Position numbers and translations under genes: made by a program | NCBI RefSeq assembly: GCF_000023945.1 | Contig: NC_013158.1 | Span: forward strand, 1-64,000 | Source of the DNA: Halorhabdus utahensis DSM 12940 | GTDB lineage: Archaea > Halobacteriota > Halobacteria > Halobacteriales > Haloarculaceae | Length of the DNA stretch: 64,000 bases | Direction: 5' to 3' | The notes under the pieces: generated by a model | Seen by the model: only the letters and a program-made list of their open reading frames with translations | Database searches by the model: none | What the model was told of the DNA's origin: nothing | Part shown: in pieces, positions 19,742 to 35,381 of the stretch | Layout: the number at the start of each line of letters is the position of its first letter | Numbering within the stretch: the stretch's first letter is position 1

Positions 19742-19871
19742 CCAGCATTGGGATTGATCGCTGCGCCAGGATGGCAGATTCTTTGTGGGGCCACCAGCGC
19801 GTCGAGAACTGCCCCTGTCCGAGGCGACAGTCCACGATGTGGCGAAGATGTTCGCTGCAAGGTCTTTCACG

Positions 19872-20225
19872 ATGAGTCCCGTGGCTTCGTCCATGTCGGG
19901 AGCGACGGGAGATGATACAGCGGTCGATCCGGACGTGATTGCCCGCCGGGTTCGTAATCGTGCCGAGCAGACGAAACGCCGAGAAGTTGCCGTCGCGACC
20001 GCAAAACTCGACGGACGCTATCACGAAGAACTGGAAGCGCTCAGTGAGCAATTAACCGGCCGGCTTCTCGCGGGGCCGCTGGCCGCACTCGAGGTGGCCG
20101 CCGAACGTGACGACCAGACACTCGCAGGGGACGTAGCGACGTTGTTCGGTGTCGACCGCTGTGCGGAAACAATGGAGGCGACTGGTGACGACATCCAAAA
20201 GCAGGTTACATCACTTGAGCATTAA
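19872..20225 (+). CDS. Stand-alone GluTR-dimerisation-like helical protein
   Basis: A 117-aa, all-helical protein. Its core (IARRVRNRAEQTKRREVAVA, then ALSEQLTGRLLAGPLAALEV and AAERDDQTLAGDVATLFGVD) resembles the C-terminal dimerisation domain of glutamyl-tRNA reductase (HemA). No catalytic or NADPH domain is present, and no hemA precedes it. Candidate starts are 19848, 19872 and 19893; 19872 is a compromise. It sits between moaC and narO, next to the nitrate respiration operon. A role in heme supply or in binding HemA is possible but purely inferred. It could also be a relic of a duplicated hemA tail. Confidence 0.6.
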   Translation: MSPVASSMSGATGDDTAVDPDVIARRVRNRAEQTKRREVAVATAKLDGRYHEELEALSEQLTGRLLAGPLAALEVAAERDDQTLAGDVATLFGVDRCAETMEATGDDIQKQVTSLEH

Positions 20226-20244: not shown

Positions 20245-20931
20245 TTATTGTCCGTGACTTGATTGGATGGTCGTGTCGGACTGGTTATCTGACCCGTCCA
20301 GGAACCCTTCCAGGAGATTGCGCTGGGCGGCCGCCAGATGTTCGGTGAACGTCGGCGTCGCGACGTCAAGTTCCGTTGCGACCGCTTCAGCAGTGGCGTT
20401 CCGTGGATATTCGAAGTAACCCATTTCGTATGCAGTCTCTAAGACTTCCCGTTGGCGGGCCGTCAATTCGCCAGGATCAGTGACCCACAGCGGCCCCGAT
20501 TCGCTCTCCGGCGGGGCTCGGACGAGTGTTCCTACCTGGACGCCATCACGGGATTCTCGAAGTGTTGAGACAATGGCTCTGATGCCATCGAGATCGGCGG
20601 CAAGGACGGTCACGAACAGCGTTCCGTCGACGACCTGTACGTCTCGAACGGTACAGCCTTCTCGCTCGATACATTCACAAGCACAGCCCTGGCCACGGGA
20701 TCGCGCCAGCCGATAGATCGTCCGGCGATCATCCTGAAAGATCGCTGTGGCGTCACCCAGCGTGTCCGGACAATCGCCCTCGCGGACAGTGAACTCGTCG
20801 TGGACCCGCCCATCCTCGTCCGGGACGGCGCTCCGTGACACCGATGCCACTGGTCCACAGTCCCGGGACACAGCCGCGACGTCACACTGGGGTGGTTCCT
20901 CGATGACGAGTTTCGCCCGAATACCCTCCAT
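20245..20931 (-). CDS. narO: NarO-like oxygen-responsive Bat-type transcription regulator
   Basis: A 228-aa regulator. The C terminus has the bacterio-opsin-activator type HTH (LTARQREVLETAYEMGYFEY, then AEAVATELDVATPTFTEHLA). The N-terminal half carries Cys16, Cys25, Cys54 and the cluster Cys83-x-Cys85-x7-Cys93 (with Cys87 inside). This matches the CXnCXCX7C motif described for NarO of Haloferax volcanii, which activates nitrate and nitrite reductase genes without oxygen and whose four Cys are needed. It is encoded directly upstream of, and divergent from, the nar operon, as in Haloferax. The related DmsR has similar Cys, but the nar context favours NarO. Confidence 0.85.
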   Translation of the reverse strand: MEGIRAKLVIEEPPQCDVAAVSRDCGPVASVSRSAVPDEDGRVHDEFTVREGDCPDTLGDATAIFQDDRRTIYRLARSRGQGCACECIEREGCTVRDVQVVDGTLFVTVLAADLDGIRAIVSTLRESRDGVQVGTLVRAPPESESGPLWVTDPGELTARQREVLETAYEMGYFEYPRNATAEAVATELDVATPTFTEHLAAAQRNLLEGFLDGSDNQSDTTIQSSHGQ

Positions 20932-20970: not shown

Positions 20971-20984
20971 CCGAACTGGTTCGG
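20971..20984. promoter_or_regulatory. Putative NarO operator of the nar operon
   Basis: CCGAACTGGTTCGG is a perfect inverted repeat (CCGAAC-TG-GTTCGG, or CGAA-N4-TTCG) in the narO-nar intergenic region. It is about 40 bp from the narO start and 185 bp before the first nar gene. A TATA-like CTTAAAG begins at 21004, about 30 bp downstream centre to centre, and a second A+T-rich element lies at 21021-21030. The same pattern recurs before nirK. Confidence 0.65.
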
Positions 20985-21003
20985 CTCTGCTCCCGCAGAG
21001 AGA

Positions 21004-21030
21004 CTTAAAGGTCGTCCCGAATATATTTTA
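21004..21030 (+). promoter_or_regulatory. Likely nar operon core promoter
   Basis: CTTAAAG at 21004-21010 and ATATATTTTA at 21021-21030 are the two best TATA candidates before the nar operon. Either implies a 5' leader of roughly 110-140 bases before the ATG at 21169. This is long for a haloarchaeon, whose transcripts are often leaderless. Confidence 0.5.
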
Positions 21031-21048
21031 CAAACTTTCAACATAAAA

Positions 21049-21064
21049 CCCCTCAGCGTTGAGG
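21049..21064 (+). ncRNA. Small hairpin in the nar leader
   Basis: CCTCA-GCGT-TGAGG forms a 5-bp stem with a 4-base loop inside the predicted nar leader, flanked by A-rich and U-rich bases. It could affect translation or mRNA stability. It is short, so chance occurrence cannot be excluded. Confidence 0.3.
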
Positions 21065-21168
21065 TTCTAGCTCTTTGGAGAGTGCCCATCATTATCTAGG
21101 GGACCGGCGTCTTCACCCGGCCAACCCCGGTGGTCGGCCGTGGGACGCGTCAGTACACAGTGATCACT

Positions 21169-21744
21169 ATGAGACGGTCCACACTCGTTATCGCCATCGT
21201 CGTGCTCGCCGTTTTGCTGCCAATGTGGTTCGTGGCGTTACACGGCGAGCCGCCCGCAGAAGAGATCGCGATCGATCAGAGCGTCTCCGAGATGCACCCG
21301 CTGGAGAGTCTGATCGATACGCCGAACAAACTTTCGCCGAGCCAGGTCGGGGTGATCGTCTGGATCGCGCTGTTTGCCCTCGTCGGTGTCCTGGCCGGTG
21401 CCCATCGGTTCATGAATCGGGCAGTGCGACGGTCCGATCCGGGTGATTCCCCATCGGCCTCGGACGGGATGCTCCCCTGGCTGGAGACCGAAGACCGATG
21501 GATTGTCGCCTACGAGGACGCGCCTGATTCGATCGAGGGGCTGGTTGCGATGGCCGGCCTGACGATACTTTCGATCGTCTGTGCCGCGTTGTTCACTGGC
21601 GAGTATCTCACCCTGGCGCGCACCCAGTACTTCGGACTGTACGCGACCGGGCTGTTCCTGTCGCTGGCCACGCTTACGGTTGCCTATTACGCCTGGTTCA
21701 TGCCCCACGTTGCGGTGGCTGAACGGAGGGGTCACGGTGAGTGA
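21169..21744 (+). CDS. narA: NarA-like membrane protein, first gene of the nar operon
   Basis: A 191-aa membrane protein with three or four hydrophobic segments: residues 5-24 (VIAIVVLAVLLPMWFVALHG), about 61-82, about 122-142, and a C-terminal one near 150-180. No cofactor motif is visible. In Haloferax mediterranei the nar operon order is narA (unknown membrane protein), narB (Rieske), narC (cytochrome b), an unknown, narG, narH, an unknown, narJ; the same order holds here, which is the basis for the name. It ends inside the Rieske gene (8-bp overlap). An anchor or accessory role in the quinol-oxidising module is inferred. Confidence 0.75.
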   Translation: MRRSTLVIAIVVLAVLLPMWFVALHGEPPAEEIAIDQSVSEMHPLESLIDTPNKLSPSQVGVIVWIALFALVGVLAGAHRFMNRAVRRSDPGDSPSASDGMLPWLETEDRWIVAYEDAPDSIEGLVAMAGLTILSIVCAALFTGEYLTLARTQYFGLYATGLFLSLATLTVAYYAWFMPHVAVAERRGHGE

Positions 21745-22366
21745 CGAGTGCCCCTGCGACCACGACGGTGAGGCCTCCGGTCCCGTCCGACCCAGCCTCT
21801 TCGATGACGACCGGGCCGAACTCCAGCGGCGTGACATCGCCAAGCTCCTGGCGACTGCGGGCGGACTCACCGGCCTGGCCAGCCTCGCTGCACCGCTTGC
21901 CGGCCTTCAGCAGGTCTTTCAGCGTACCTATACGGGGCCGATCTACGGCGAGAGCATCCCGCTGGTCGACGGCGAGGGCAACCGGATCACGCCGGATCGC
22001 CTCGAGGAGGGCGAGCAACTGACGGTGTTCCCCGAGCCCCGACCGGGCATCGGGGACGCGCCGACGCTGCTCGTTCGCTTTCCCGAGACGGAGTACGGTG
22101 GTGGGACCGAACTCGCCTACACCGTCGATGGCTACGCCGCGTATTCGAAGATCTGTACGCACGCGGGCTGTACGGTGTCCGACCGGGAGGGGGAGACGCT
22201 CGTCTGTCCGTGTCACTACGGGAAGTTCGACCCCACGAACGGCGCCGCCGTCACGGGCGGGCCCCCGCCCCGGCCGCTTCCACAACTCCCGATCACGCTC
22301 GCGAGTGAGGGCCATCTGATCGCGACGGGCGACTTCGACGGCCACGTCGGCGCGGGGGGTGAGTGA
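21737..22366 (+). CDS. narB: Rieske [2Fe-2S] protein of nitrate respiration
   Basis: Rieske iron-sulfur protein (209 aa) passing electrons from quinol toward the extracellular nitrate reductase. A Tat-like anchor [20 protein letters not shown] (31-50) precedes the domain. Cluster ligands are Cys140 and His142 in box I (CTHAGC) and Cys157 and His160 in box II (CPCH). Cys145 and Cys159 are placed for the usual disulfide. The start is GTG at 21737, overlapping the upstream stop by 8 bp; a Cys-rich leader (DECPCDHD) precedes the Tat motif. Its end overlaps the cytochrome b start by one base. With cytochrome b it replaces the membrane NarI subunit of bacteria. Confidence 0.92.
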
Positions 22367-23784
22367 TGTCGCGAAGTCAGCGCGTCTACGCGTGGTTCGA
22401 CGATCGTCTCGATCTGGACGAGGCCGAGCAGTTCATGGGGAAGGCCTTCCCGGCGGAGGACTCGTTCCTGCTCGGTGAGGTTGCGCTGTTCTCGTTCGTC
22501 ATGCTCGTCCTCACCGGCATCTTCCTCGGGTTCTTCTATGAGCCCTCGACCACGGAGATGACCTACGAGGGCAGTGTCGCCCAGTTTCAGGGCGAGTCCT
22601 TGCCGGCGGCGTTCGGAAGCGTTCTCCAGCTGACCTACGACGTGCCCTTCGGCATGTTCATCCGCCGGTTCCACCACTGGGCGGCCCACCTGTTCGTCGC
22701 CTCGATCGGCCTGCATATGCTGCGGGTGTTCTTCCACGGGGCCTACCGCAACCCGCGTGAGATCAACTGGGTCGTCGGGACGACGCTCGCGATCCTCGCG
22801 ATGGGTGCGGCATACACCGGCTACGCGCTGCCCTTCGACGAGTTCGCCTCGACGGCGACCGGGATCGGCTACAACATCGCCGGCTCGATCCCGATCCTCG
22901 GCGACCCGATCGCCGCCATCGTCTTCGGCGGGGACTTCCCTTCCAGCGCGACCATCCCCCGCCTCTATTTCCTGCACGTCTTTGTCATCCCCATCCTGAT
23001 CGCCGGTGGCCTGGCGCTCCACATGGGACTGCTCGTCCGACAGAAACACACGGAGGCACAGCGGGAGGACGACGTCAAACCGGTCGATTCGGGAACCGCC
23101 GAAGCCGCCGCCGACCGCAACCGCGAGACCGTCGATCGTGAGGACGACAGCGTCGTCGTCGGGCTGCCGGCGTTCCCCAACCAGACGGCAGTCAGCGCCG
23201 TCGTCTTCTTCCTCACGCTGGCGACGCTGTCGGCGCTGGCAGGGTTCCTGCCCGTCCACAACATCGCCGAGTACGGCCCGAACAACCCTGCGGGCACGCC
23301 CGCGCTAATCATGCCCGACTGGTTTTTCATGTGGCTGTATGGGTTCCTGAAAGTCCTTCCGTCGTCGCTGGGCTTTCACCTCGGGCCGATCGAGATCAGC
23401 GCCGAGTTCCTCGGTGGGGTCGCCCTGCCGTCGCTGGTCTTCCTGGCCGTCTTCGCCTGGCCCTTTATCGACCGACGACGGGATAGCGTCCACTTCACGG
23501 CCGATCCCTTCGAGCGCCCAGTCCAGACCGGGGTCGGCGTCGCCGGCGTCGTCTTCGTCATGATCGCCTCGATCGCCGGCATGAACAACCTGCTGGCCGA
23601 GGCGCTGGGGACGACGACCGGGGCCGTCAATCTGCCACTGTTGCTCGCGATGATTGTCGGTCCGATCGCGGCCTTCGGGGTCGTCCATCGGGCGATCAGC
23701 CGCGAGCGGACGACGGCCGATACCGCGGCGCAACCGGACGGGGACGACAGGACTGAGCCACCGGAGGTGACCGACGATGAGTGA
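22366..23784 (+). CDS. narC: Cytochrome b/b6-type subunit
   Basis: Diheme cytochrome b (472 aa) that likely oxidises menaquinol together with the Rieske protein. Heme-ligand pairs are His103/His104 with His117 in [16 protein letters not shown], and His204 with His219 in [18 protein letters not shown]; the second pair has 15-residue spacing as in cytochrome b6. The quinol-site PEWY motif appears as PDWF ([14 protein letters not shown]). About eight membrane helices are present, followed by an acidic tail. ATG at 22366 overlaps the Rieske stop (TGATG); a GTG lies one codon earlier. It overlaps the next gene by 8 bp. Confidence 0.93.
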
Positions 23785-23962
23785 GCACCGGTCGGCACTG
23801 TCCGGACGGACGTACCGACGCCTGGATACGGCGAGTAAACTCGGCGGGCTGGCGCTGGTCGCTGGGGCCCTGGAAGTGGGACCGACGACTGCCGCCGGAG
23901 TCACGCTCGTCGTCATCGGAGCCACGTTCGCAACTACAACCGTCTTTATCGATAACTCATGA
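23777..23962 (+). CDS. Small membrane protein of the nar operon (orf4)
   Basis: A 61-aa protein with a basic N terminus ([11 protein letters not shown]) and two hydrophobic helices (about 24-36 and 40-57). It overlaps the cytochrome b gene by 8 bp and narG by 4 bp (ATGA), so its translation is tightly coupled. This is the position of the unknown fourth gene in the Haloferax nar operon. A structural role in the cytochrome b/Rieske module is inferred. Confidence 0.75.
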
Positions 23963-26814
23963 GTGATCCAACCCAATCCGACGACAGTACAGACGGCGTC
24001 TCACGTCGCGACTTCCTGCTGGGTGCCGGCGCGGCCGGCGTGGTCGGCGCGACCGGCCTGACCGTCGCCGATCGCGCCCTCGACGGGCTCGAAACCGTCG
24101 ACGATCCGATCGGCAATTATCCCTACCGCGACTGGGAGGACTTCTACCGTGAGGAGTGGGACTGGGATTCGGTCGCCCGGTCGACGCACTCGGTCAACTG
24201 CACCGGCTCCTGTTCGTGGGACGTCTACGTCAAGAACGGCCAGGTCTGGCGCGAACAACAGGCCAACGACTACCCGACCTTCGACGAGAGTCTCCCCGAT
24301 CCCAACCCCCGGGGCTGCCAGAAGGGGGCCTGTTACAACGACTACGTCGACGCCGAACAGCGTGTCCAGTACCCGATGCGTCGCACCGGCGAGCGCGGGG
24401 CCGGCGAGTGGGAGCGCATCTCCTGGGACGAGGCGCTGACCGAGATCGCCGAGCACGTCATCGAGGAGATCCAGAACGGCCGCTACGACGCGATTTCCGG
24501 GTTCACGCCGATCCCCGCGATGAGTCCCGTGAGCTTCGCCTCGGGGACGCGGCTGGTCAACCTGCTCGGCGGCGTCTCTCACTCCTTCTACGACTGGTAT
24601 TCGGACCTCCCGCCGGGCCAGCCGATCACCTGGGGCCATCAGACCGACAACGCCGAGAGCGCCGACTGGCACAACGCCGAGTACATCATCGCGTGGGGGT
24701 CAAACATCAACGTCACGCGCATCCCCGACGCGAAGTACTTCCTCGACGCGGGCTACGAGGGCGCAAAGCGGGTCGGCGTCTTCTCCGATTACTCCCAGAC
24801 CGCCATCCACACCGACGAGTGGATCGCGCCTGATCCCGGTACCGACACCGCGCTGGCGCTTGGGATGGCCCGCACCATCGTCGAGGAGGAGCTCTACGAC
24901 GAGGCACACCTCAAGGAACAGTCCGACATGCCACTGCTCGTTCGGAACGATACGGGCAAGTTCCTCCGGGCGAGCGAGGTCCCCGGCCTCTCGGTTGCAG
25001 CCGACGAACCCGAGAAGGTCATGGTCATGCAGGACGGGGAGGGCAACCTGCGTGCTGCGCCGGGGTCGCTCGGTGAACGCGAGGCCAAGTACGACGACTC
25101 CTTGTCGATCGAACTCGATTTCGACCCGCAACTGGCCGTCGAGGACACCGTCGGGACGACCGACGGCGAGGTGGCCGTCACGTCGGTCTGGAACAACCTC
25201 CGGGAGGAACTGGCCAACTACACGCCCGAGTACGTCGCCGACGAGACCGGCGTCGGGAAGGAGACTCACCAGAAGATCGCCCGGGAGTTCGCCGACGTCG
25301 ACCGCGGGAAGATCATCCACGGCAAGGGCGTCAACGACTGGTATCACAACGACCTGGGCAACCGTGCGATCCAGTTGCTCGTCACGTTGACGGGCCACAT
25401 CGGGCGGAACGGCACCGGCGTCGACCACTACGTCGGCCAGGAGAAGATCTGGACGTTCAACGGCTGGAAGACCCTCTCGTTCCCGACCGGTTCCGTCCGG
25501 GGCGTCCCGACGACGTTGTGGACCTACTACCACGCGGGCATCCTGGAGAACACCGACGCGGAGACCCGCCGGAAGATCGAGGAGGCCGTCGAGAAGGACT
25601 GGATGCCCGTCTACCCCGAGGAGCGCGGGGACGGCACCCGACCCGATCCCTCGACGATGTTCGTCTGGCGGGGCAACTTCTTCAACCAGGCGAAGGGCAA
25701 CGTCGCCGTCGAGGAGGTCCTCTGGGACAAACTCGACCTCGTCGTGGACATCAACTTCCGGCTGGACTCGACAGCGCTGTACGCCGACATCGTCCTGCCG
25801 GCCGCGAGCCACTACGAGAAACACGACCTCAACATGACGGACATGCACACCTACGTGCATCCGTTTACGCCCGCGGTCGAACCGCTGGGTGAGTCCAAGT
25901 CCGACTGGCAGATCTTCCGGGAACTCGCGGCGAAGATCCAGGAAATCGCCCGCGATCGGGACATCGACCCGATCGACGACCGGAAGTTCGACCGCCAGAT
26001 CGACCTCCAGTCGGTCCACGACGACTACGTCCGGGACTGGGTGAGCGACGAAGACGGTGCCCTGGAAGAGGACCGGGCGGCCTGCGAGGCCATCCTCGAA
26101 CACTCCACGGAGACCAATCCGGACGACGGCGGCGAGATCACCTTCGCCGACACCGTCGACCAGCCCCAGCGCTTCGAGGCCGCGGGCGACCACTGGACCT
26201 CCGACATCGAGGACGGCACGGCCTACGCGCCCTGGAAGGACTTCGTCCAGGACAAGGAGCCCTGGCCAACCCTGACGGGTCGCCAGCAGTACTACATCGA
26301 TCACGACTGGTTCCTCGATGTCGACGAGCAACTCCCGACGCACAAGCGCCCGGTCGAGACCAACGATCAGAGCGAGTACCCCCTGCGGTACAACACGCCC
26401 CACGGTCGGTGGTCGATCCACTCGACGTGGCGCGACAGCGAAAAAATGTTGCAGTTGAACCGGGGTGAGCCGGTGGTCTTCATTCACCCCGAGGACGCAA
26501 AGCACCGCGGGATCGAGGACGGCGACACGGTCGAGATCTACAACGACCTGGCGACGATCGAGGCCAACGCCAAGCTCTACCCGGCCAGCGAACCCGGGAC
26601 CGTCCGGCATTACTTCGCCTGGGAGCGCTACCAGTACCCCAGCCGGAACAACTTCAACTCGCTGATCCCGATGTACATGAAACCCACCCAGCTCGTCCAG
26701 TACCCCGAAGACTCGGGCGAGCACCTCCATTTCTTCCCGAACTTCTGGGGCCCGACCGGGGTCAACAGCGACGTCCGCTGTGATATTAGGCCGAAAGAAG
26801 GGGGTGACGACTGA
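23959..26814 (+). CDS. narG: Respiratory nitrate reductase catalytic subunit NarG
   Basis: Molybdenum bis-MGD enzyme reducing nitrate to nitrite (951 aa). Tat signal SRRDFLLGAGAAGVVGATG (15-33) shows that the active site faces outside the cell. The FS0 [4Fe-4S] ligands are His77, Cys81, Cys85 and Cys120 (H-x3-C-x3-C-x34-C). The Asp-type Mo ligand of NarG lies in YDWYSDLPPG (211-220), followed by WGHQTDNAESADWHNAEYII, a NarG hallmark that rules out Nap (Cys) or DMSO reductase (Ser). The start overlaps the upstream gene by ATGA, and the end overlaps narH by one base. Outward-facing NarGH of this kind, with Rieske and cytochrome b partners, is typical of haloarchaea. Confidence 0.97.
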   Translation: MSDPTQSDDSTDGVSRRDFLLGAGAAGVVGATGLTVADRALDGLETVDDPIGNYPYRDWEDFYREEWDWDSVARSTHSVNCTGSCSWDVYVKNGQVWREQQANDYPTFDESLPDPNPRGCQKGACYNDYVDAEQRVQYPMRRTGERGAGEWERISWDEALTEIAEHVIEEIQNGRYDAISGFTPIPAMSPVSFASGTRLVNLLGGVSHSFYDWYSDLPPGQPITWGHQTDNAESADWHNAEYIIAWGSNINVTRIPDAKYFLDAGYEGAKRVGVFSDYSQTAIHTDEWIAPDPGTDTALALGMARTIVEEELYDEAHLKEQSDMPLLVRNDTGKFLRASEVPGLSVAADEPEKVMVMQDGEGNLRAAPGSLGEREAKYDDSLSIELDFDPQLAVEDTVGTTDGEVAVTSVWNNLREELANYTPEYVADETGVGKETHQKIAREFADVDRGKIIHGKGVNDWYHNDLGNRAIQLLVTLTGHIGRNGTGVDHYVGQEKIWTFNGWKTLSFPTGSVRGVPTTLWTYYHAGILENTDAETRRKIEEAVEKDWMPVYPEERGDGTRPDPSTMFVWRGNFFNQAKGNVAVEEVLWDKLDLVVDINFRLDSTALYADIVLPAASHYEKHDLNMTDMHTYVHPFTPAVEPLGESKSDWQIFRELAAKIQEIARDRDIDPIDDRKFDRQIDLQSVHDDYVRDWVSDEDGALEEDRAACEAILEHSTETNPDDGGEITFADTVDQPQRFEAAGDHWTSDIEDGTAYAPWKDFVQDKEPWPTLTGRQQYYIDHDWFLDVDEQLPTHKRPVETNDQSEYPLRYNTPHGRWSIHSTWRDSEKMLQLNRGEPVVFIHPEDAKHRGIEDGDTVEIYNDLATIEANAKLYPASEPGTVRHYFAWERYQYPSRNNFNSLIPMYMKPTQLVQYPEDSGEHLHFFPNFWGPTGVNSDVRCDIRPKEGGDD

Positions 26815-27863
26815 TGGCCCACGACGATGTCGACATCGCGGAGGGTGTCGACCACCAGGTCGCGATGGTGATGGACCTCAACAAGTGTATCGGGTGTCAG
26901 ACCTGTACGGTCGCCTGCGAGACACTCTGGACCGAGCGGGAGGGCACCGAGTACATGTACTGGAACAACGTCGAGACCCGCCCCGGATCGGGCTATCCCC
27001 GCGACTGGGAGGAGAAAGGCGGCGGCTGGGAGTCCGCGGAGCACAACCAGCGCTCCGTCGGGGAGATTCCCTCCCAGCAGGATTACGGCGAGAACTGGGA
27101 ATTCGATCACGAGGGCATCCTCAAGGAGGGCGAAGACAAGGCCCTCGAACCCGAGAACGTCGATCCCGAGTGGGGGCCCAACTGGGACGAGGACCAGGGT
27201 GCCGGCGAGCACCCCAACAACTACTACTTCTACATGCCCCGGATCTGCAACCACTGCACCCACCCCTCCTGTGTGGAGGCCTGCCCCCGCAAGGCCATTT
27301 ACAAGCGTGAGGAAGACGGCATCGTTCTCGTCGATCAGGAGCGCTGTCGGGGCTACCGCTACTGCGTCGAGGGCTGTCCCTACAAGAAGGTCTACTACAA
27401 CGCCGTCACGAAGCGCTCCGAGAAGTGCGTCTTCTGTTACCCGCGAATTGAGGGCGAAGGCCCCGACGACGAGGTCCACCCGCCGGCCTGCGCGGATCAG
27501 TGTACCACGCAACTCCGTCTGGTGGGCTATCTCGACGACCGGGACGGCCCGATCTACAAGCTCGTCGAGCAATACGAGGTCGCCCTGCCCCTGCATCCGG
27601 AGTACCAGACGACGCCGAACGTCTACTACATCCCGCCGTTCGCCCCGTCCCAGCATAGCGAGGACGGCGAGACCGTCGACGTGGATCGGATCCCGCGATC
27701 GTACCTCGAAGAGCTGTTCGGCGAGCAGGTCAACGATGCGCTGGACACGATCGAACGTGAACGCGCGAAGGTCGAACGCGGCGGTCACAGCGAACTGATG
27801 GAGATCCTTCAGGACAAGAATCCCGCCCAGCAGTACCGCCTAGAGGTGTTCGACGATGCGTGA
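26814..27863 (+). CDS. narH: Nitrate reductase iron-sulfur subunit NarH
   Basis: Electron-transfer subunit (349 aa) carrying four FeS clusters to NarG. The Cys groups are C25-x2-C28-x2-C31-x3-C35; C145-x2-C148-x4-C153-x3-C157; C178-x5-C184-x3-C188, in which Tyr181 replaces the second Cys; and C205-x2-C208 with C226 and C230. The Tyr (Trp in E. coli NarH) marks a [3Fe-4S] cluster in this group. No signal peptide is present; it is presumably exported with NarG by the Tat system. It is joined to narG by a TGATG overlap. Confidence 0.96.
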   Translation: MAHDDVDIAEGVDHQVAMVMDLNKCIGCQTCTVACETLWTEREGTEYMYWNNVETRPGSGYPRDWEEKGGGWESAEHNQRSVGEIPSQQDYGENWEFDHEGILKEGEDKALEPENVDPEWGPNWDEDQGAGEHPNNYYFYMPRICNHCTHPSCVEACPRKAIYKREEDGIVLVDQERCRGYRYCVEGCPYKKVYYNAVTKRSEKCVFCYPRIEGEGPDDEVHPPACADQCTTQLRLVGYLDDRDGPIYKLVEQYEVALPLHPEYQTTPNVYYIPPFAPSQHSEDGETVDVDRIPRSYLEELFGEQVNDALDTIERERAKVERGGHSELMEILQDKNPAQQYRLEVFDDA

Positions 27864-27886
27864 GCGAAGCGAACCATCGTCGAGCT

Positions 27887-27905
27887 CGGGAAGCTCCGCT
27901 TCCCG
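27887..27905 (+). promoter_or_regulatory. 8-bp inverted repeat between narH and the heme-subunit gene
   Basis: CGGGAAGC-TCC-GCTTCCCG is a perfect stem with a 3-base loop, 24-42 bp after the narH stop. If the heme-subunit gene starts at 27916, the hairpin is intercistronic and may act in RNA processing or stability. If translation starts at 27856 it is inside a Ser-rich leader. Confidence 0.5.
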
Positions 27906-27915
27906 GCGTTTGACG

Positions 27916-28767
27916 ATGACTGACATCACCCACGGCAAGCGTCCGCTACTGGTCGCCGGCCTGCTCGCCGGGTTGCTCGTCGCGAGCGCCGCGCTCGCGC
28001 CGCTGATCGCCGATGCACGGCCAGCCCGGGAGATCCCCGTCGAGAACGTCGATCAGTCGCTTTCCGATCCCGGTGCCGAGGGCTGGAGTGACGTCCCGGC
28101 GGCGACGATCCCGCTGGCGAGTGCACCCAGTGGCGTCCCGAACGCCGACGACACGACAGTTCGGGAAGTCGAAGTGGCGGCGGCCACAACGGCCGAGCAG
28201 TTGTTCGTCAGGCTGCGATGGGCCGATCGGAGCGCCGATCGATCGGCAGGCACGCCACGCGCGTTCGCCGACATGGCGGCGATCCAGTTCCCCGTCAACG
28301 CGACGACTCAGCCCGCGATCGCGATGGGCAGCGCGAGCAACCTGGTGAATGTCTGGCAGTGGTCGGCCGCGGGCAACTCCCAGGAACTGCTTGCCGGCGG
28401 GCCCGGGACGACGACAGTTTTCGAGCAGCCCGAGATGAGCACTGCTGCGACCCGAAGCACAGTCGGGGACGGGGAGGGATGGAGCGTCGTGTTCGCCCGC
28501 GATTTGAACGCGACCGTCCAGAACCGAACGCAGCTGGCTGCTGATGCCGATATCAGCGTCGCCCTCGGGGTCTGGGACGGACAGAACAGCGAACGGGCCG
28601 GACAGAAGGCTGTCAGCGAGTGGTACTACTTCCCGTTCGGGCCCGAGGACGGCGGCGCGCCGTTCCAGACGATCCTCTGGGCCGTCGCCGCCGGCGCGAT
28701 CGCACTCGTGATTGCGGTCACGGCACTCAGCGTCCGGCAGGCCCGTCAGGAGGGCGAGTCAGGATGA
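27916..28767 (+). CDS. Heme-binding gamma-type subunit (ethylbenzene dehydrogenase-like)
   Basis: A 283-aa exported protein resembling the heme b gamma subunits of ethylbenzene dehydrogenase, DdhC and archaeal Nar. A hydrophobic N-terminal signal (PLLVAGLLAGLLVASAALAP) precedes a beta-rich domain with AAIQFPVNATTQPAIAMGSA and WQWSA, in which Met is a likely heme ligand. Later comes GQKAVSEWYYFPFG, where Lys is a likely second ligand. A C-terminal membrane helix anchors it. In these enzymes the subunit passes electrons between the membrane donor and NarH. ATG at 27916 is preferred; an ATG at 27856 inside narH would add a Ser-rich stretch covering the hairpin. Confidence 0.8.
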   Translation: MTDITHGKRPLLVAGLLAGLLVASAALAPLIADARPAREIPVENVDQSLSDPGAEGWSDVPAATIPLASAPSGVPNADDTTVREVEVAAATTAEQLFVRLRWADRSADRSAGTPRAFADMAAIQFPVNATTQPAIAMGSASNLVNVWQWSAAGNSQELLAGGPGTTTVFEQPEMSTAATRSTVGDGEGWSVVFARDLNATVQNRTQLAADADISVALGVWDGQNSERAGQKAVSEWYYFPFGPEDGGAPFQTILWAVAAGAIALVIAVTALSVRQARQEGESG

Positions 28768-29498
28768 CCGCGACAGATACCGGCGGGACGGACCAGCGTG
28801 ACGCCCAGCTCAAGGCGGGAGACGTTGCAACTGATCCCGCCGCCCGTGGCGTTCTCTATCAGACGCTGGCTCGGGCCTTCGCGCATCCGACGGAAGCGTT
28901 CCATGCCGCACTGGGTGCGGGCCGAATCGGTAGCGGGATACGGGACGCTATCACCCAAACACGATTGGACGTCACCGTGCCGGACCTCTCCCCAGCGGAG
29001 GACTATCAGGATCTCAGCGCACGCTACAATCACGTGTTCGCCCTCGGGATGACTGCGACCACCGACCGGACGGACGGGTCAGTCGAGAAAGAAGGGCCGG
29101 CAGTCTCGCTGTACGAGTCGAGTCATCGGGACGATGCGACCTGGGAGACGATCAACGTTGACCTGGCACGGGCATACGAATACTACGATCTCTCGGTCGA
29201 TACGGACGAACGCGATCACCACGACAACCTCGGTCTGCAACTGGAGTTCGCCGGCTACCTCGCCCGCCGGGAGGCGCTCGGCGAGGACGACGCCGCGGCC
29301 GCCCGCCGGGATCTCCTGGATCGGCATTTGACCGTCTTTACGTCGTCGCTACGTGAGGAACTGGTCGAGTTGGACACCGCCGGGGTCTATACCGAATTGG
29401 CGACGCTCCTGGAGCGCGTCGTCGCGGCCGACCACGCGGACCTCACGGACCGTCTCGGCGCTGTTCCGTCGGCGGATGAACGCGAGGTGAACTGGTGA
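28764..29498 (+). CDS. narJ: NarJ/TorD-family molybdoenzyme chaperone
   Basis: Cytoplasmic chaperone (244 aa) of the TorD/DmsD/NarJ family that binds the NarG leader and helps cofactor insertion before Tat export. Visible are the all-helical fold with YQTLARAFAHP near the start, DYQDLSARYNHVF, and the family-like sequence EGPAVSLYESSHRD. A C-terminal LQLEFAGYLARREA helix follows. ATG at 28764 overlaps the preceding stop by ATGA. Its position after the FeS and heme subunits matches narJ of the Haloferax operon. Confidence 0.9.
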   Translation: MTATDTGGTDQRDAQLKAGDVATDPAARGVLYQTLARAFAHPTEAFHAALGAGRIGSGIRDAITQTRLDVTVPDLSPAEDYQDLSARYNHVFALGMTATTDRTDGSVEKEGPAVSLYESSHRDDATWETINVDLARAYEYYDLSVDTDERDHHDNLGLQLEFAGYLARREALGEDDAAAARRDLLDRHLTVFTSSLREELVELDTAGVYTELATLLERVVAADHADLTDRLGAVPSADEREVNW

Positions 29499-30367
29499 TG
29501 AGCGGACGTGTCGTGGCCGACGAGTTAGCCCGCATCCCGACGACTGCACGTGGTGTCGGCGAGATGGATCGCACGGTGCTTGCGGTGCCGGCCGTTCTCG
29601 TGGCGGCCGCGCTTTTCGTCAGCCGATTGGCGATCAATGCACGGTCTGGCAGTCCGATCGATCTGGTTGCCTTCCAGAAGTTGCTCGTCCCGCTCACGGC
29701 GCTTGCTTGCGCCGGATCGCTGCTCGCGGTCGCGATCAGTCACGGAGAGAGCTACGAGACAGTCGGATTGGCGTTCGTCGGCGTCTTCGGCGTGGCCGGG
29801 ACGATCGCACGGCCGGCGTATCTTCCTACCATCGTGGCGATCATGGCGGGAACGGCTCTCGCGACAGGCGGTCGGTTGTTCAACGAGCCCATTCGTATCG
29901 GCCCGGTCGTGGTCGGCGGCCTTCTGATCAGTGGACTCGCAGTATCGCTAGCCGGGACGTTCGGGTTCGCGTCTGCCGCGACGCGTTCGCTGGGAACCCA
30001 GTTGACGCTCATCGGCGTCGCCGGCACGCCGATCTTTCTCGTGCGCGACCGGGCGGACTATCTCGTGGGTGCCCTCGGTACCGGGTTGCTGGTCGCCGTG
30101 GGCCTGATTGGACCGTTCGTGCTCGGTGCGACCGGCCTCGTCGCCGGTGGGATCGTCGGCGCTTCACTCCCGCTGATGGCACTCGCCGTCGGTGGACTGA
30201 CGACGACAGCGAGTGCCGCGTTGCGAACGCACCAACACGCCGCTGCCCTGGGTGCGGGGCTCCTGTTGTTCGCCGGGATTCCAGCGACGCTTCCCCGTGC
30301 GCTGGCGTTCGTTCTCGCTGTCGTCTTGCTCGTCGAGACGACGACCGGAGGTGCCGGCGATGCCTGA
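29498..30367 (+). CDS. Multi-pass membrane protein of the nar operon (orf9-like)
   Basis: A 289-aa membrane protein with about eight hydrophobic helices from residue 27 on (TVLAVPAVLVAAALFVSRLA, then repeated Gly/Ala-rich helices). No cofactor or transporter signature is clear. ATG at 29498 overlaps the narJ stop by one base, and the end overlaps the next gene by 8 bp, so it is translationally coupled. It matches the unknown orf9 downstream of narJ in Haloferax by position. Nitrate transport is less likely because NarG already faces outside; function unknown. Confidence 0.75.
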   Translation: MSGRVVADELARIPTTARGVGEMDRTVLAVPAVLVAAALFVSRLAINARSGSPIDLVAFQKLLVPLTALACAGSLLAVAISHGESYETVGLAFVGVFGVAGTIARPAYLPTIVAIMAGTALATGGRLFNEPIRIGPVVVGGLLISGLAVSLAGTFGFASAATRSLGTQLTLIGVAGTPIFLVRDRADYLVGALGTGLLVAVGLIGPFVLGATGLVAGGIVGASLPLMALAVGGLTTTASAALRTHQHAAALGAGLLLFAGIPATLPRALAFVLAVVLLVETTTGGAGDA

Positions 30368-31154
30368 GCGCGACGGCGATCACCGGTCACCGCAGGCCGA
30401 CGATCTGGCCGAGAGGGAGGGCAACCATCCCGAAGTGACCACCAGCAGGGCGGACGTGACGTTGGGGCAGGCCAGCGAGGCCGACTTCGCGGCGGCAGAC
30501 ACCGATCCCGTGGCCGACGAGAGCGAGTGCGCGCTGCTCGACCGTCTCGACGCCGACGCGGCGACCGAGCGCCAGCGGGCGGCTCTGGCGCTTGCCGGGC
30601 GCGATCCGGGCGAGGCGGCGATCGATGCGCTCGCCGATCGCACGAGGGACGATCCCGAAGCCACTGTCCGTCAGTTCGCCGTCGAAGCGCTTGGCGAACT
30701 GGCCGAGTCGATGCCGGAAGCTGTAAGGTCGGCAACGGAGGATCCGGATCCCTGGGTTCGAGCGGAGGCGATCGTCGCGCTCGATCATCTGGATCGGGAG
30801 GGCCACGCCGACCGGATCGTCGACGCACTTGATGATGAGCACCACGCTGTCCGGCGGAACGCCGTCATCTCGCTGTGGAAGGGCCGCGGCGAGGACGTAC
30901 TGCCGGAACTGCTCGGCCTGGTTGACGACGAGTCCGATCGCGTTCGGGAGTGGGTCGCGGAGCTCCTCGGTCGGATCGGCCATCCGGACGCCGAAGACGC
31001 CCTGACACAACTTCGGGCGGACGACGAATCGATCGTTGCCAAGACCGCTGCGAACGCACTCGATGGGGGCGATTCGATACCGGGACCGCCCGGCGGAACC
31101 GCCCCGGACGGGACTGATCCATCGGGAACCCGCGACCGATCACCACAGCTGTGA
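30360..31154 (+). CDS. HEAT-repeat protein of the nar operon
   Basis: A 264-aa acidic protein with about four or five HEAT-type helical repeats between residues 60 and 235. Examples are VRQFAVEALGELAE, PWVRAEAIVALDHLD, HAVRRNAVISLWKGRG and DRVREWVAELLGRIGHP. The N-terminal 55 and C-terminal 30 residues are disordered. HEAT repeats mediate protein contacts; in an operon with narJ it may assist Nar assembly, but nothing shows this directly. Its start overlaps the membrane protein gene by 8 bp. Confidence 0.82.
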   Translation: MPERDGDHRSPQADDLAEREGNHPEVTTSRADVTLGQASEADFAAADTDPVADESECALLDRLDADAATERQRAALALAGRDPGEAAIDALADRTRDDPEATVRQFAVEALGELAESMPEAVRSATEDPDPWVRAEAIVALDHLDREGHADRIVDALDDEHHAVRRNAVISLWKGRGEDVLPELLGLVDDESDRVREWVAELLGRIGHPDAEDALTQLRADDESIVAKTAANALDGGDSIPGPPGGTAPDGTDPSGTRDRSPQL

Positions 31155-31190
31155 GCCGATCTGCGGAACACGGGTTACCACCACGGAGCA

Positions 31191-31442
31191 ATGACAACCG
31201 ACACCATTTCAGCCGAAGTCAGGCGATCGATCGAGACGCTCACTCCCGAGGGAGCGGGGACGCCGGTCGAGTTGCTGTTCGTCGGTGAGGGGGCCGTGTG
31301 GCTGGTCGTCGATCCCGACCGGATCGAGAGTCACGAGGCGATGATCGACGTGTTTCGAGCCGTCGAAGACGTGCCCGGCGTCGAGACGCTCTACGTCGAA
31401 CGGAGTGACGTCAGTCGGTTCGAGGACGAGTCGCTTCCCTAG
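31191..31442 (+). CDS. Small hypothetical protein between nar genes and a radical SAM gene
   Basis: An 83-aa protein with an alternating helix/strand pattern (SAEVRRSIETLTPEG, PVELLFVGEGAVWLVVDPDR, MIDVFRAVEDVPGVETLYV) and an acidic tail. Neither Cys nor a signal is present. It is 36 bp after the HEAT gene, preceded by CGGAG, and 135 bp before the radical SAM gene. It could be a partner or substrate of that enzyme or a separate accessory. The family is not recognised. Confidence 0.6.
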   Translation: MTTDTISAEVRRSIETLTPEGAGTPVELLFVGEGAVWLVVDPDRIESHEAMIDVFRAVEDVPGVETLYVERSDVSRFEDESLP

Positions 31443-31577
31443 CGTCAATTCAGGTCGAACGTGTTCGGGACGGTCGACTTGGACAGCGAGGCGTACAGGG
31501 TACTATGGATCGCCACAGCACTCGTACCGTCGCTGTGTATCGACTCTCACGGGTCGGCCAACCGGGGGGAGAGAAAC

Positions 31578-32696
31578 GTGCGGCCCACTGACATCGACCC
31601 GAGTGAACGCCCGATCGTCCTCATCTGGGAGCTCACCCAGGCGTGTGATCTAGCCTGCAAACACTGCCGTGCCGAGGCCGAAGACCGCCGTCACCCCGAC
31701 GAACTCACGACGGCAGAGGGCAAGCAGTTGCTCGCTGACGCGACCGAGTTTGGCGATGAACAGCTGGTCGTCCTCTCGGGGGGTGATCCGCTCTACCGGG
31801 ACGACGTGACGGAACTCGTCGAGTACGGCACCGACCAGGGCCTTCGAATGACGCTGACGCCGAGCGGCACGGCCTCGCTGACGTCAGAACGCATCGAGGC
31901 GCTCGCCAGCGCTGGTCTCCGGCGCATGGCAGTCAGCCTGGACGGCCCGGATGCCGAATCACACGACGGGTTCCGCCAGGAAGCGGGGAGTTTCGAGCAG
32001 ACGATCGCCGCTGCACGGACCGCTCGCGAGAAGGGCCTCCCACTGCAGGTCAACACGACGGTCTGCGGGGAGACGGTTGAGGACCTGCCGGCGATCCGCG
32101 ATCTGGTAGCTGATCTGGGCGCGGTGCTGTGGTCGGTGTTCTTTCTCGTCCCGATCGGCCGCGGGACGGTGCTCGATCCGATCTCGCCCGAGCGGGCTGA
32201 GGACGTCATGGCGTGGCTCGCGGAGGTCCAGCGAGACGCTGACTTCGGGATCAAGACGACCGAAGCGCCGCACTACCGACGTGTCGCGCTCCAACGACGG
32301 CAAGATGGAGCAGGTGGTCGCCCGCCCATGGGGCAGCAGCGTCACTCATCAAGCGGGGACCGGTCGACGGGAATCACCGCCGGCAACGGCTTCGCGTTCG
32401 TCAGTCACACCGGCGAGGTGTTCCCGTCAGGCTTCCTCCCGCAGTCAGCCGGCAACGTCCGCGAGACGAGTGTCGTCGACATCTACCGCAACGGGGACCT
32501 CTTCGAGCGACTGCGGGATCCTGATGAACTCTCCGGGAAGTGTGGGGCCTGTGAGTTCCGATTCGTCTGTGGTGGCAGTCGCTCGCGAGCGTTCGCGACT
32601 ACGGGCGATCCGATGGCGAGCGATCCACTCTGTGCGTACGTTCCAGAGGGCTACGACGGTGCGCTCCCCGATGGAGCTCCGGAAACCGCGGACTGA
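31578..32696 (+). CDS. Radical SAM/SPASM protein, NirJ/AhbD-like (TIGR04053 type)
   Basis: Radical SAM enzyme (372 aa from GTG at 31578) with the [4Fe-4S]-SAM motif C23-x3-C27-x2-C30 (QACDLACKHC). A second cluster region of SPASM type at the C terminus has C322, C325, C331 and C352 (CGACEFRFVCGGSRSRAF, DPLC). This architecture is shared with NirJ and AhbD, which make heme d1 or heme, and with a related TIGR04053 family. The context of nitrate reductase and heme proteins fits a tetrapyrrole role. GTG at 31578 follows a GGGGGAGAG stretch and matches the family start better than the in-frame ATG at 31461. Precise reaction unknown. Confidence 0.82.
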   Translation: MRPTDIDPSERPIVLIWELTQACDLACKHCRAEAEDRRHPDELTTAEGKQLLADATEFGDEQLVVLSGGDPLYRDDVTELVEYGTDQGLRMTLTPSGTASLTSERIEALASAGLRRMAVSLDGPDAESHDGFRQEAGSFEQTIAAARTAREKGLPLQVNTTVCGETVEDLPAIRDLVADLGAVLWSVFFLVPIGRGTVLDPISPERAEDVMAWLAEVQRDADFGIKTTEAPHYRRVALQRRQDGAGGRPPMGQQRHSSSGDRSTGITAGNGFAFVSHTGEVFPSGFLPQSAGNVRETSVVDIYRNGDLFERLRDPDELSGKCGACEFRFVCGGSRSRAFATTGDPMASDPLCAYVPEGYDGALPDGAPETAD

Positions 32697-32747
32697 GGAA
32701 CAGCGACGACATTGGTGTGTGCCCGCTTAAAACTGCCCCGTGGTACG

Positions 32748-32981
32748 TCACTTCTTCGGCAACGTCGCGACGAATTTGCCCTCGCCCTGACACGCTACCT
32801 CGTAGTTGTCCGCGTCGAAGGCGTCGACTTCGGCCTGGAATTCATAAAACAGCGGTTTGGGTTCGTGGTCGTTGATGATTTCCAGTGCTTCACCGTGTTC
32901 TAAGTCCTCGAAAGCGTCGTGAATTTTCGGATGGCGCTCCGGCGGCGGCACGTCCCTGAGATCTAGCGTGGTTGCTGGCAT
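32748..32981 (-). CDS. DUF2249 domain protein
   Basis: A 77-aa protein of the DUF2249 family: LDLRDVPPPERHPKIHDAFE, EALEIINDHEPKPLFYEFQA, and a final strand GKFVATLPK. The family has a SirA/TusA-like fold and occurs near denitrification genes; its job is unknown. The start at 32981 is clear; a longer frame upstream is not family-like. A second DUF2249 gene lies 900 bp away beyond a MOSC gene on the same strand. An imperfect NarO-like repeat lies 40 bp before its ATG. Confidence 0.88.
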   Translation of the reverse strand: MPATTLDLRDVPPPERHPKIHDAFEDLEHGEALEIINDHEPKPLFYEFQAEVDAFDADNYEVACQGEGKFVATLPKK

Positions 32982-33020
32982 ACAGGCGTCTTCTGGGATG
33001 TGGCCGTGAAGCGATTCCCC

Positions 33021-33032
33021 CGAACATATTCC
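33021..33032. promoter_or_regulatory. Weak NarO-like site before the DUF2249 gene
   Basis: CGAACATATTCC fits CGAA-N4-TTC with the last base changed (C for G), between the MOSC stop and the DUF2249 start. No TATA box is obvious downstream of it, so it may be non-functional. Confidence 0.35.
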
Positions 33033-33040
33033 GCCGGTCG

Positions 33041-33817
33041 TCATCCGACGACCTTGACCGGGTCGCCGACCGCGATCTCCGATTCCCTGTCGGACTTTGG
33101 AATCGACGCGATGAGCATCAGCGTATAATAGTGATCGAACGCGTCTTCGTCGGCCCAGTCGGGGAAGGTCTGCTCGCGCATTTCGACGAACCGTTCGCGG
33201 AACGCGGGGGTCGGCTCGCCGGTGTCGGGATCGCGCTCGGGAACGACACATCTCCCGCACGGCGTCACGCCGTCGAATCGGACGCCGCCCGCCTCGAAAA
33301 TGGGGGCCTCGTCGCCGACGAAGCGATCCTCCCAGAACGCGGGCACGCCGGAAACTTCGACGTTGGCCCGGAGTCTGCGGCGCACACTCTCGACTGTCAA
33401 CTCGTCGAACCACGACGCGACTGCCTCTAGGGTCGCCGTGGAGACGACCGACGGCCCCATGTCCCGGCGGTCGACGAATCCCAGGGACTCGTCCCGGCGT
33501 AGCGTCAGGTCGGCCTCGAAAAACTCGCCGAACCACGACTCCGCCTGCCGACGATCATCCTCCACGTCGAGGTCGAACTCTCGTTGGTCGCCGGCAGGGG
33601 TTTCGACCGTCAATACACCGGTCGCCGTCTCGAAATCGGTCATCAACTCGTGGATTCGATCGGTCCGCTTGCCGTTGAAGACCTCGCCGTCGGCGTCAAA
33701 CAGTGCATACTCCCGGTCGTGTTCGAGCGTCCCTCCTTTGAGAACGCGAGCGGTTTCGACATCGATCCCGTCGAGTCCCTTGACCGGGAATACGCGGAGT
33801 CGCTCGATCCGTGCCAT
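33041..33817 (-). CDS. MOSC domain protein
   Basis: A 258-aa protein with an N-terminal MOSC-N beta barrel (IERLRVFPVKGLDGI, EHDREYALFDADG). A C-terminal MOSC domain has the conserved Cys in FDGVTPCGRCVVPERDPDTG. MOSC proteins bind sulfur or molybdopterin, as in the C-terminal domain of Moco sulfurase and in mARC. The mARC-like layout (two domains, Cys near residue 190) allows an amidoxime/nitrite-reducing role or Moco handling. Being between two DUF2249 genes and near nirK suggests a link with nitrogen oxides, unproven. Confidence 0.88.
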   Translation of the reverse strand: MARIERLRVFPVKGLDGIDVETARVLKGGTLEHDREYALFDADGEVFNGKRTDRIHELMTDFETATGVLTVETPAGDQREFDLDVEDDRRQAESWFGEFFEADLTLRRDESLGFVDRRDMGPSVVSTATLEAVASWFDELTVESVRRRLRANVEVSGVPAFWEDRFVGDEAPIFEAGGVRFDGVTPCGRCVVPERDPDTGEPTPAFRERFVEMREQTFPDWADEDAFDHYYTLMLIASIPKSDRESEIAVGDPVKVVG

Positions 33818-33865
33818 CGCTTTTTTCTTGGAACGATCCGGGGAAAATCTTGGCGTCCTCGACGT

Positions 33866-34099
33866 TCAGGCGTGCCGGATCTCGACGTGGTACTTCTGTG
33901 GACCGACCTGTTCGGTCTCATGGGTGAATCCGCGGGCTTGAAGAACGTCGTACAGCGGTTCGGGTTCAAAGCTATTGATCAGCAGGAACGATCCATCTTC
34001 TGAGAGCGTTGCCAGACCGTCCATGATTGCCTCGAAAGGCTCGCCGTCGATCTCTCGGGCGTCGAGCGTTGCCTCGTGAGCCTCTGCGTGTTGCTCCAT
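33866..34099 (-). CDS. DUF2249 domain protein, divergent from nirK
   Basis: A 77-aa DUF2249 protein: ATLDAREIDGEPFEAIMDGL, FLLINSFEPEPLYDVLQARG, KYHVEIRHA. It shares the 193-bp divergent promoter region with nirK and so may share its regulation. Sequence similarity to the other DUF2249 protein in the window is modest, so they look like separate paralogues rather than a recent duplication. Its partner is unknown. Confidence 0.85.
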   Translation of the reverse strand: MEQHAEAHEATLDAREIDGEPFEAIMDGLATLSEDGSFLLINSFEPEPLYDVLQARGFTHETEQVGPQKYHVEIRHA

Positions 34100-34229
34100 G
34101 GGGTTCCTTGTGGGTTCCCCGGTATTCGTTCTCTCCCGAACTTGTTCGCCTCTTCTCCCGTTCTGGAGTTGACGTACCCAGTGGTGTCACACGACCAGGT
34201 CTCGCGCTGGTATCCGACGCCCCACGGTA

Positions 34230-34241
34230 CGAACATGTTCT
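34230..34241. promoter_or_regulatory. Putative NarO operator of nirK
   Basis: CGAACATGTTCT contains the perfect palindrome GAACATGTTC and fits CGAA-N4-TTC(G) with only the last base different. It lies 52 bp before the nirK ATG. A weak TATA candidate TTTGATA is at 34273-34279, about 41 bp centre to centre, roughly one helical turn more than the spacing seen before nar. Confidence 0.6.
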
Positions 34242-34292: not shown

Positions 34293-35381
34293 ATGTCATC
34301 TATCCCGGTCGCCACACGACGGCGCGTTCTCCAGGCCCTCGGAGTCGGCGGCGCCGCGGCCCTCGCCGGCTGTGGTGCGTCGAGCGACACCGACGACCAG
34401 CCTGCCGAGAATACGTCACCCACCGAACCTCACATGAACGATCCCCAGATGACAGACGTCGACCGTATCGCCGCCGATCCGACCGACGTCCCTGATCCGA
34501 TCGACCGGTCCTCGCCGGCGACAGTCAACGTCGAACTCGAGACGCGCGAACTCGTCGCCGAGGTCGAACCGGGCGTCACCTACACCTACATGACCTTCGA
34601 CAATCAGGTTCCGGGGCCACTGATCCGGGTCCGCAAAGGTGACACGGTGAATATGACGGTCACCAGCCACGAGGACAACACGATGCCCCACAACATCGAC
34701 CTCCACGCGGTCAGGGGGCCAGGTGGCGGGGCCGAGGCGTCGATGGTCGCCCCCGGCGAAACCGAGACCTTCCAGTTCAAGGCGACCTACCCCGGCGCAT
34801 TCATCTATCACTGTGCCGTCCCGAACTTGGACTATCACATCGCCTCGGGGATGTACGGTCTCATTCTCGTCGAACCCGAGGACGGGCTTCCCGAGGTCGA
34901 TCACGAACTCTACTTCGGCCAGAACGAACTCTATACCACGGGCGACGTATCCCAGGATGGCCACCACGACTTCGACATGGATGCGATGACGGCCGAAGAG
35001 CCGACGTACGTGCTCATGAACGGTGAGAGTCGCGCTATTACGGAAAATCGGTATGGCCCGGTAACCGTCGACGTCGGCGACACCGCCCGCGTGTACTTCG
35101 TCAACGGTGGTCCAAACCTCACGTCGAGTTTCCACCCGATCGGGTGTGTCTGGGACGAAGTCCATCCCCAGGGTGGGATCGGGGGGCCGCCCCATCGAAA
35201 CATCCAGACGACGCCCGTCATGCCCGGCTCGGCGACCATCGCGACGATGCACTTCGAGGTCCCCGGCCCGGTGAAACTCGTCGATCACGCCCTCTCGCGG
35301 GTCGCCCGGAAAGGGCTCCTGGCCGTCGTCGAAGCCGAGGGCGACGCCCGTCCTGATCTCTTTGATCCCGATCCGGACTGA
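34293..35381 (+). CDS. nirK: Copper-containing nitrite reductase NirK
   Basis: Reduces nitrite to nitric oxide outside the membrane (362 aa). N-terminal TRRRVLQALGVGGAAALAGCG shows both a Tat motif and a lipobox Cys (27), so it is probably a lipid-anchored Tat substrate. Type 1 copper ligands are His133, Cys174, His182 and Met187; type 2 ligands are His138, His173 and His332. The catalytic Asp (Asp136) and His (His281) are present. The order fits two cupredoxin domains of the green/blue NirK family. It takes the product of NarGH, so together they form the first two denitrification steps. Nor and Nos are not in the window. Confidence 0.97.
   Translation: MSSIPVATRRRVLQALGVGGAAALAGCGASSDTDDQPAENTSPTEPHMNDPQMTDVDRIAADPTDVPDPIDRSSPATVNVELETRELVAEVEPGVTYTYMTFDNQVPGPLIRVRKGDTVNMTVTSHEDNTMPHNIDLHAVRGPGGGAEASMVAPGETETFQFKATYPGAFIYHCAVPNLDYHIASGMYGLILVEPEDGLPEVDHELYFGQNELYTTGDVSQDGHHDFDMDAMTAEEPTYVLMNGESRAITENRYGPVTVDVGDTARVYFVNGGPNLTSSFHPIGCVWDEVHPQGGIGGPPHRNIQTTPVMPGSATIATMHFEVPGPVKLVDHALSRVARKGLLAVVEAEGDARPDLFDPDPD

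Follow-up and report, generated by a model that had tools for sequence, protein, structure and literature searches.

A conserved palindrome at low-oxygen and denitrification promoters of haloarchaea, and R2 as its candidate binder

Which protein reads the inverted repeat in front of the denitrification genes of Halorhabdus utahensis DSM 12940? To our knowledge, haloarchaea are without the denitrification regulators of bacteria. The window analyzed here is the first 64 kb of the complete 3.117-Mb chromosome of this haloarchaeon (NC_013158.1), and it carries a nar operon, the nitrite reductase gene nirK, and two genes of the DUF2249 family. An earlier note on the window had described a shared CGAA-N4-TTCG repeat before nar, nirK, and a DUF2249 gene, and had proposed a small low-oxygen regulon under the adjacent NarO-like regulator. 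Its three repeats lie exactly where it placed them (CCGAACTGGTTCGG at 20971-20984, CGAACATATTCC at 33021-33032, and CGAACATGTTCT at 34230-34241), the last two with one mismatch each. The shared element proved strongly supported by conservation, whereas NarO as its regulator did not find support as the main reading. The reading we favor, and hold to be rather probable, is that the tighter palindrome CGAAC-N2-GTTCG acts as the operator of a haloarchaeal low-oxygen and denitrification regulon. Its most likely direct binder would be R2, a protein with BAT and HTH_10 domains, with NarO as a target and an extra input.

Conservation of the palindrome at orthologous promoters

Repeats of this kind might be chance matches in a GC-rich genome, and pattern searches, on which all genome-wide statements here rest, confirmed that the bare pattern is frequent. 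There are 177 exact copies of CGAA-N4-TTCG in the genome, and with one mismatch the window holds 71 matches versus 53 ± 8 in shuffles. We rejected this count as evidence because the pattern is too common. The tighter CGAAC-N2-GTTCG has only 20 genome copies, of which three fall in the window versus 0.41 expected (P about 0.01, by our own Poisson estimate). These three are the nar site, a site at the radical SAM gene, and one before the second DUF2249 gene (Table 1). The latter two had been overlooked in the earlier note, as had an exact CGAA-N4-TTCG at 19843 and a degenerate copy at 21018.

Conservation was therefore assessed with a motif fixed from the window, at loci picked by protein rather than by motif, allowing at most one mismatch. 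Palindromes made from permuted half-sites, plus a shifted ATG window, served as controls; a reversed pattern was not the main control because it alters composition. Within 200 bp upstream of nirK, the palindrome was found in 26 of 30 cases, compared to a mean of 0.14 for permuted controls. Single-domain DUF2249 genes in the family carried it in 33 of 40 cases, 18 of them perfect (control mean 0.28), and orthologs of the first DUF2249 gene of the window (DUF2249-A) in seven other families did so in 28 of 34 (control mean 0.24). The promoter of R2 itself had the palindrome in all 30 genomes, 28 times perfectly, where permuted controls gave 0.

Closer relatives gave a similar picture. All six genomes of the genus that have narO show divergent narO and nar with the site between them. 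In the intergenic region between DUF2249 and nirK, comparison with a near relative (G072) found 24/24 site positions identical and 138/169 of the remainder. The weak site at 33021 is probably real, because it is orthologous to better-matching copies in relatives.

The earlier note had named two refuting outcomes, chance frequency across the genome and a lack of conservation at orthologous nar and nirK promoters. The bare pattern is indeed common, but the promoter copies at nirK, DUF2249 genes, and R2 are conserved beyond their permuted controls. With spacing also fixed, as described below, chance is a very improbable explanation overall and is already refuted for the promoter copies examined in these four comparisons.

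Spacing, promoter layout, and targets

Within the genus, palindromes most often lie 38 nt from the ATG. Across 109 genomes, sites followed by N36-40-ATG number 693 versus 324 for N46-50-ATG, and all 33 palindrome-bearing DUF2249 genes of the family have an in-frame ATG 38-41 nt away. One conserved site with 30-nt spacing, at 2.4276 Mb, falls inside the coding sequence of a ribosomal protein and was set aside.

The sequence 3' of the palindrome is GC-rich except for a G at +1, AA at +5/+6, A or T at +12 (33 of 33 DUF2249 promoters), and WA at +28/29. The same pattern of marks, weaker, appears in 97 promoters of other genes. AA at +5/6 and W at +12 fit the positions of the TFB recognition element (BRE) and TATA box. 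Such a layout is consistent with a BRE adjoining the operator, with a poor TATA box, and with transcription beginning at the ATG or close to it. These promoters are TATA-poor and probably leaderless and activator-dependent. In Haloarcula-type nirK genes the site is 103 nt upstream, and in nirK and nor of named Haloferacaceae it is 66-67 nt upstream; those genes therefore have leaders.

Reading the promoters also led us to reject the suggestion that repeat-to-TATA spacings of 30 bp at nar and 41 bp at nirK differ by a helical turn. At nar, the TATA-like CTTAAA begins 20 bp after the repeat, and the nirK promoter has its marks at the usual +5/6 and +12. Conserved features of the nar intergenic region are TATAAA, the degenerate second copy, another TATA-like element, and CCCTCAGCGTTGAGG; the degenerate copy with the following AACATAAA is a possible second nar promoter. 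Six nar promoters of the genus conserve another palindrome, CCTCAGCGTTGAGG (window 21051-21064), and in Haloarcula-type nirK promoters (e.g., L026 1426) the similar CTCAGCGGCTGAG stands after the CGAAC site and before TATA. This other palindrome could belong to a different regulator, perhaps NarO. In L026, L027, and further nirK promoters of the Haloarcula type, an additional conserved dyad, GTTCTTACCGAGCAAGAAC, separates the CGAAC site from the CTCAG palindrome.

In the H. utahensis genome, a site lies 37-41 nt ahead of the start codon of narO, of the GlutR-dimer gene (likely an additional target), and of both DUF2249 genes of the window. Outside the window, such sites precede a 170-aa gene followed by a third DUF2249 gene (170.7 kb), a COX1-like membrane protein gene whose site departs from the tighter palindrome at one position, and two divergent genes at 1.309 Mb encoding R2 and a polyketide-cyclase-like protein. 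DUF2249 was the commonest class among the family loci examined, with 45 instances in 25 loci that were partly chosen by motif. The suggestion that a DUF2249 gene is a possible new member of the regulon thus stands as to membership but overstates its newness, as such genes have already been placed in the regulon of Haloferax mediterranei (PMC11218638).

Two observations concern other genes with such sites. The 170-aa protein (L199 2929-3441(-)) has no Pfam match, and in many genomes it is a conserved neighbor of DUF2249 and COX1-like genes with a 38-nt site. MoeA-like genes beside nar in G071 and G070 (L100 8705, L101 8686) have CGAACGCGTTCA 38 nt before their start; no corresponding site was found before the moeA of the window.

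NarO and R2 as candidate binders

The proposal that NarO itself binds CGAA-N4-TTCG and directly activates nar, nirK, and DUF2249 genes had been based on adjacency. Its reading of the protein was accurate: Cys83-x-Cys85-x7-Cys93 and the upstream Cys16 are present (cysteines at 16, 25, 54, 83, 85, 87, and 93), so the CXnCXCX7C motif is intact. NarO also has an HTH_10 domain, its gene adjoins the nar operon and its site, and the narO promoter has the site in 6/6 genus members. Moreover, deletion of narO reportedly abolishes denitrifying growth of Haloferax volcanii.

Nevertheless, we consider this proposal unlikely. A genome of the same genus (G073) is without nirK and NarO, its best NarO-like hit being 94% identical to a separate paralog of the H. 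utahensis genome; it presumably also lacks nar, judging from the missing narO-nar locus, as NarG was not searched for. G073 keeps the 38-nt sites at R2 and its divergent neighbor. Enrichment of N36-40 over N46-50 sites was 607:253 in genomes with R2 and 272:113 in those with R2 and no NarO, versus 86:71 in those without R2. Only 10 of 24 NarO-like genes in other genera have the site, compared to R2's 30 of 30. H. mediterranei is reported to be without NarO yet uses the motif (PMC10062603). NarO is doubtful as the binder because G073 keeps its sites without it and because family-wide enrichment follows R2.

R2 is annotated merely as a helix-turn-helix protein in most records. In at least 17 genomes, as read by hand, an R2-like gene is no more than about 7 kb away from nirK. 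Such genes also form part of the nor-nirK clusters of Haloferax larsenii, Halobellus limi, and Halomarina and Halorussus plasmids, where sites stand 37-46 or 66-80 nt before many genes. Many R2 promoters (L221-L225, L227, L233, L234, L237, L247, L250) have a further copy of the palindrome 4-12 nt upstream of the R2 start, an arrangement that would fit negative autoregulation.

It is also conceivable that several HTH_10 paralogs (R2, NarO/DmsR-type, and others) share the palindrome in response to differing signals, such that it has no single owner. In most genomes HTH_10 hits number twelve or more, the site is also present at DmsR_N-type regulators of denitrification clusters, and nar has two differently spaced copies. 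However, the R2 promoter is far more uniform than the NarO-like ones, and R2 differs from NarO in its recognition helix. We rate this sharing as improbable, slightly more so than binding by NarO.

Several points weigh against R2 as the direct binder. Genome counts are not phylogenetically independent, R2 presence is confounded with denitrification and DUF2249 content, and the E-value cut-offs for R2 and NarO were set after the data had been seen. G073 retains a further DmsR_N paralog whose recognition helix resembles that of NarO, and there are still other HTH_10 paralogs. The phenotype ascribed to narO deletion in H. volcanii belongs here as well. Finally, motif mutations at nar and nirK of H. 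mediterranei were without significant effect (PMC10062603).

With R2 as the favored candidate, we propose that a dimeric HTH_10 activator would bind the palindrome directly beside the BRE and recruit TFB/TBP where the TATA box is poor, in much the way of GvpE at the promoters of gas-vesicle genes. Since most targets are probably leaderless, the operator would be held 37-41 nt before the start codon, with nirK, nor, and nar having leaders in many genomes. Predicted targets are nar, nirK, nor, AhbD-like radical SAM genes, single-domain DUF2249 genes, and the genes for a COX1-like membrane protein, for cupins, and for the regulators. The putatively autoregulated R2 is the most likely direct binder, putatively of CGAACATGTTCG, and NarO is more likely one target plus an additional cysteine-based input than the only binder. 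In its fullest form, R2 would be a direct, autoregulated activator of a class-wide regulon with TATA-poor leaderless promoters at 37-41 nt, single-domain DUF2249 genes would be its most constant targets, and NarO would act downstream or in parallel. We regard that form as evenly poised between right and wrong.

The window and its relation to known systems

Table 1. Coordinates of palindromes and genes in the 64-kb window
Feature	Position	Strand	Remarks
Site CGAAGATGTTCG	19843..19854	+	38 nt before ATG of GlutR-dimer gene; equal spacing in three relatives
Small protein with GlutR dimerisation domain	19893..20225	+	Domain search
NarO-like regulator, DmsR_N + HTH_10	20245..20931	-	Domain search; C16 and C83-x-C85-x7-C93
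Palindrome CGAACTGGTTCG, narO/nar intergenic	20972..20983	.	40 nt from narO ATG; conserved in 6/6 same-genus genomes with narO
TATA-like CTTAAA, nar side	21004..21009	+	20 bp after palindrome; TATAAA in four relatives
Degenerate second copy CGAATATATTTT	21018..21029	+	CGAACATATTTC or CGAACATATTTT in four relatives; then conserved AACATAAA
nar operon	21169..29498	+	Small membrane protein, Rieske/cytochrome b-type genes, NarG, NarH, PF09459 subunit, chaperone (TIGR03482)
Palindrome CGAACGTGTTCG before radical SAM gene	31456..31467	+	TGAACATATTCG at corresponding place in G072
Radical SAM/SPASM gene, TIGR04053 (AhbD-like)	31461..32696	+	Profile match
DUF2249 protein A	32748..32981	-	PF10006, 1.5e-23
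Degenerate site, coding strand GGAATATGTTCG	33021..33032	-	39 nt before DUF2249-A ATG; orthologous sites in other genus members
DUF2249 protein B	33866..34099	-	PF10006, 4.7e-19
Palindrome CGAACTTGTTCG	34137..34148	-	37 nt before DUF2249-B ATG; 37-38 nt in five relatives
Site CGAACATGTTCT before nirK	34230..34241	+	51 nt from ATG; conserved in G072
nirK, copper nitrite reductase	34293..35381	+	TIGR02376, 8.1e-128

As listed in Table 1, the sites accompany genes assigned mostly by domain or profile matches. NarG and NarH match TIGR03479 and TIGR03478, both models of the type II dimethyl sulfoxide reductase family, and the Rieske gene takes its name from the layout of the nar operon. Judged by nirK, the nearest named relatives of the chromosome are Halapricum and Haloarcula. 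DUF2249 proteins A and B, between whose genes sits a MOSC gene, score 82.8 and 68.4 bits against a curated PF10006 cut-off of 29.5, and the third copy at 170.7 kb scores 54.1 bits.

Conservation with G072 points to a GTG near 31585 as the probable true start of the radical SAM gene. A short out-of-frame reading frame (window 31505-31592) opens at the first ATG, 37 nt past the site, and ends at or just beyond this probable start. It has ~28 codons here and 22 in G072 (L079/L080), with sequences that appear unrelated by eye. Between the small frame and the radical SAM gene, G072 contains a gene-sized insertion that the window lacks (L079/L080, C1 about 1354000-1355800).

Much of this regulon has been described elsewhere. 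PMC5746218, citing Hattori 2016, reports CGAA-X4-TTCG for H. volcanii denitrification genes and ahbD, including the role of the palindrome at nirK. The likeness lies in its position before nirK and an AhbD-type radical SAM gene and in anaerobic activation. Unlike in that account, the element is here family-wide, has fixed start-codon spacing, is most frequent before DUF2249 genes among the loci examined, and has R2 as the likelier binder. The H. mediterranei motif CGAAYATDKTYG is the same element, found at nir, nor, nos, and DUF2249 genes (PMC10062603, PMC11218638). Its mutation reduces nos and nor promoter activity (PMC10062603), and the TGAACATGTTCG point mutant is published as weakening nosp. 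A bacterioopsin-activator-like gene in the nirK-nor cluster has been proposed there as a regulator (PMC10062603, PMC11218638); from its position and domain type, this gene is presumably R2. The protein reading the motif was still undisclosed in 2024 (PMC11218638). Mutation of narp there was without effect, whereas the nar intergenic copy here is conserved in 6/6 genus genomes.

Two further systems invite comparison. The upstream activating sequence of GvpE is essential and must lie close to the adjacent BRE (PMC4390858), and resembles the layout proposed here in being a dyad activator site directly beside the BRE of a haloarchaeal promoter. GvpE is, however, leucine-zipper-like with a 20-nt element, while R2 is a BAT and HTH_10 protein with a 12-bp palindrome as its putative site. 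DrpA and DrpB of Thermus thermophilus are DUF2249 proteins controlled with nitrate respiration and proposed as nitrate sensors (PMC6282519). Unlike the haloarchaeal genes, they are bacterial and DnrT-dependent.

Because the palindrome, its mutagenesis, and DUF2249 membership have all been published, the discovery proposed in the earlier note was already known in outline. To this we add the fixed spacing, the layout of the promoters, how widely DUF2249 genes are linked to the palindrome, and the argument for R2. The regulon is real and mostly known, here in a new host, and the useful addition is the testable nomination of R2. With a candidate that is conserved and probably autoregulated, and with so strict a promoter layout, the question of the binder becomes testable, and low-oxygen genes can be listed more sharply in any genome of the haloarchaea. 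Because the site precedes most single-domain DUF2249 genes, this family of unknown function is firmly tied to the low-oxygen response.

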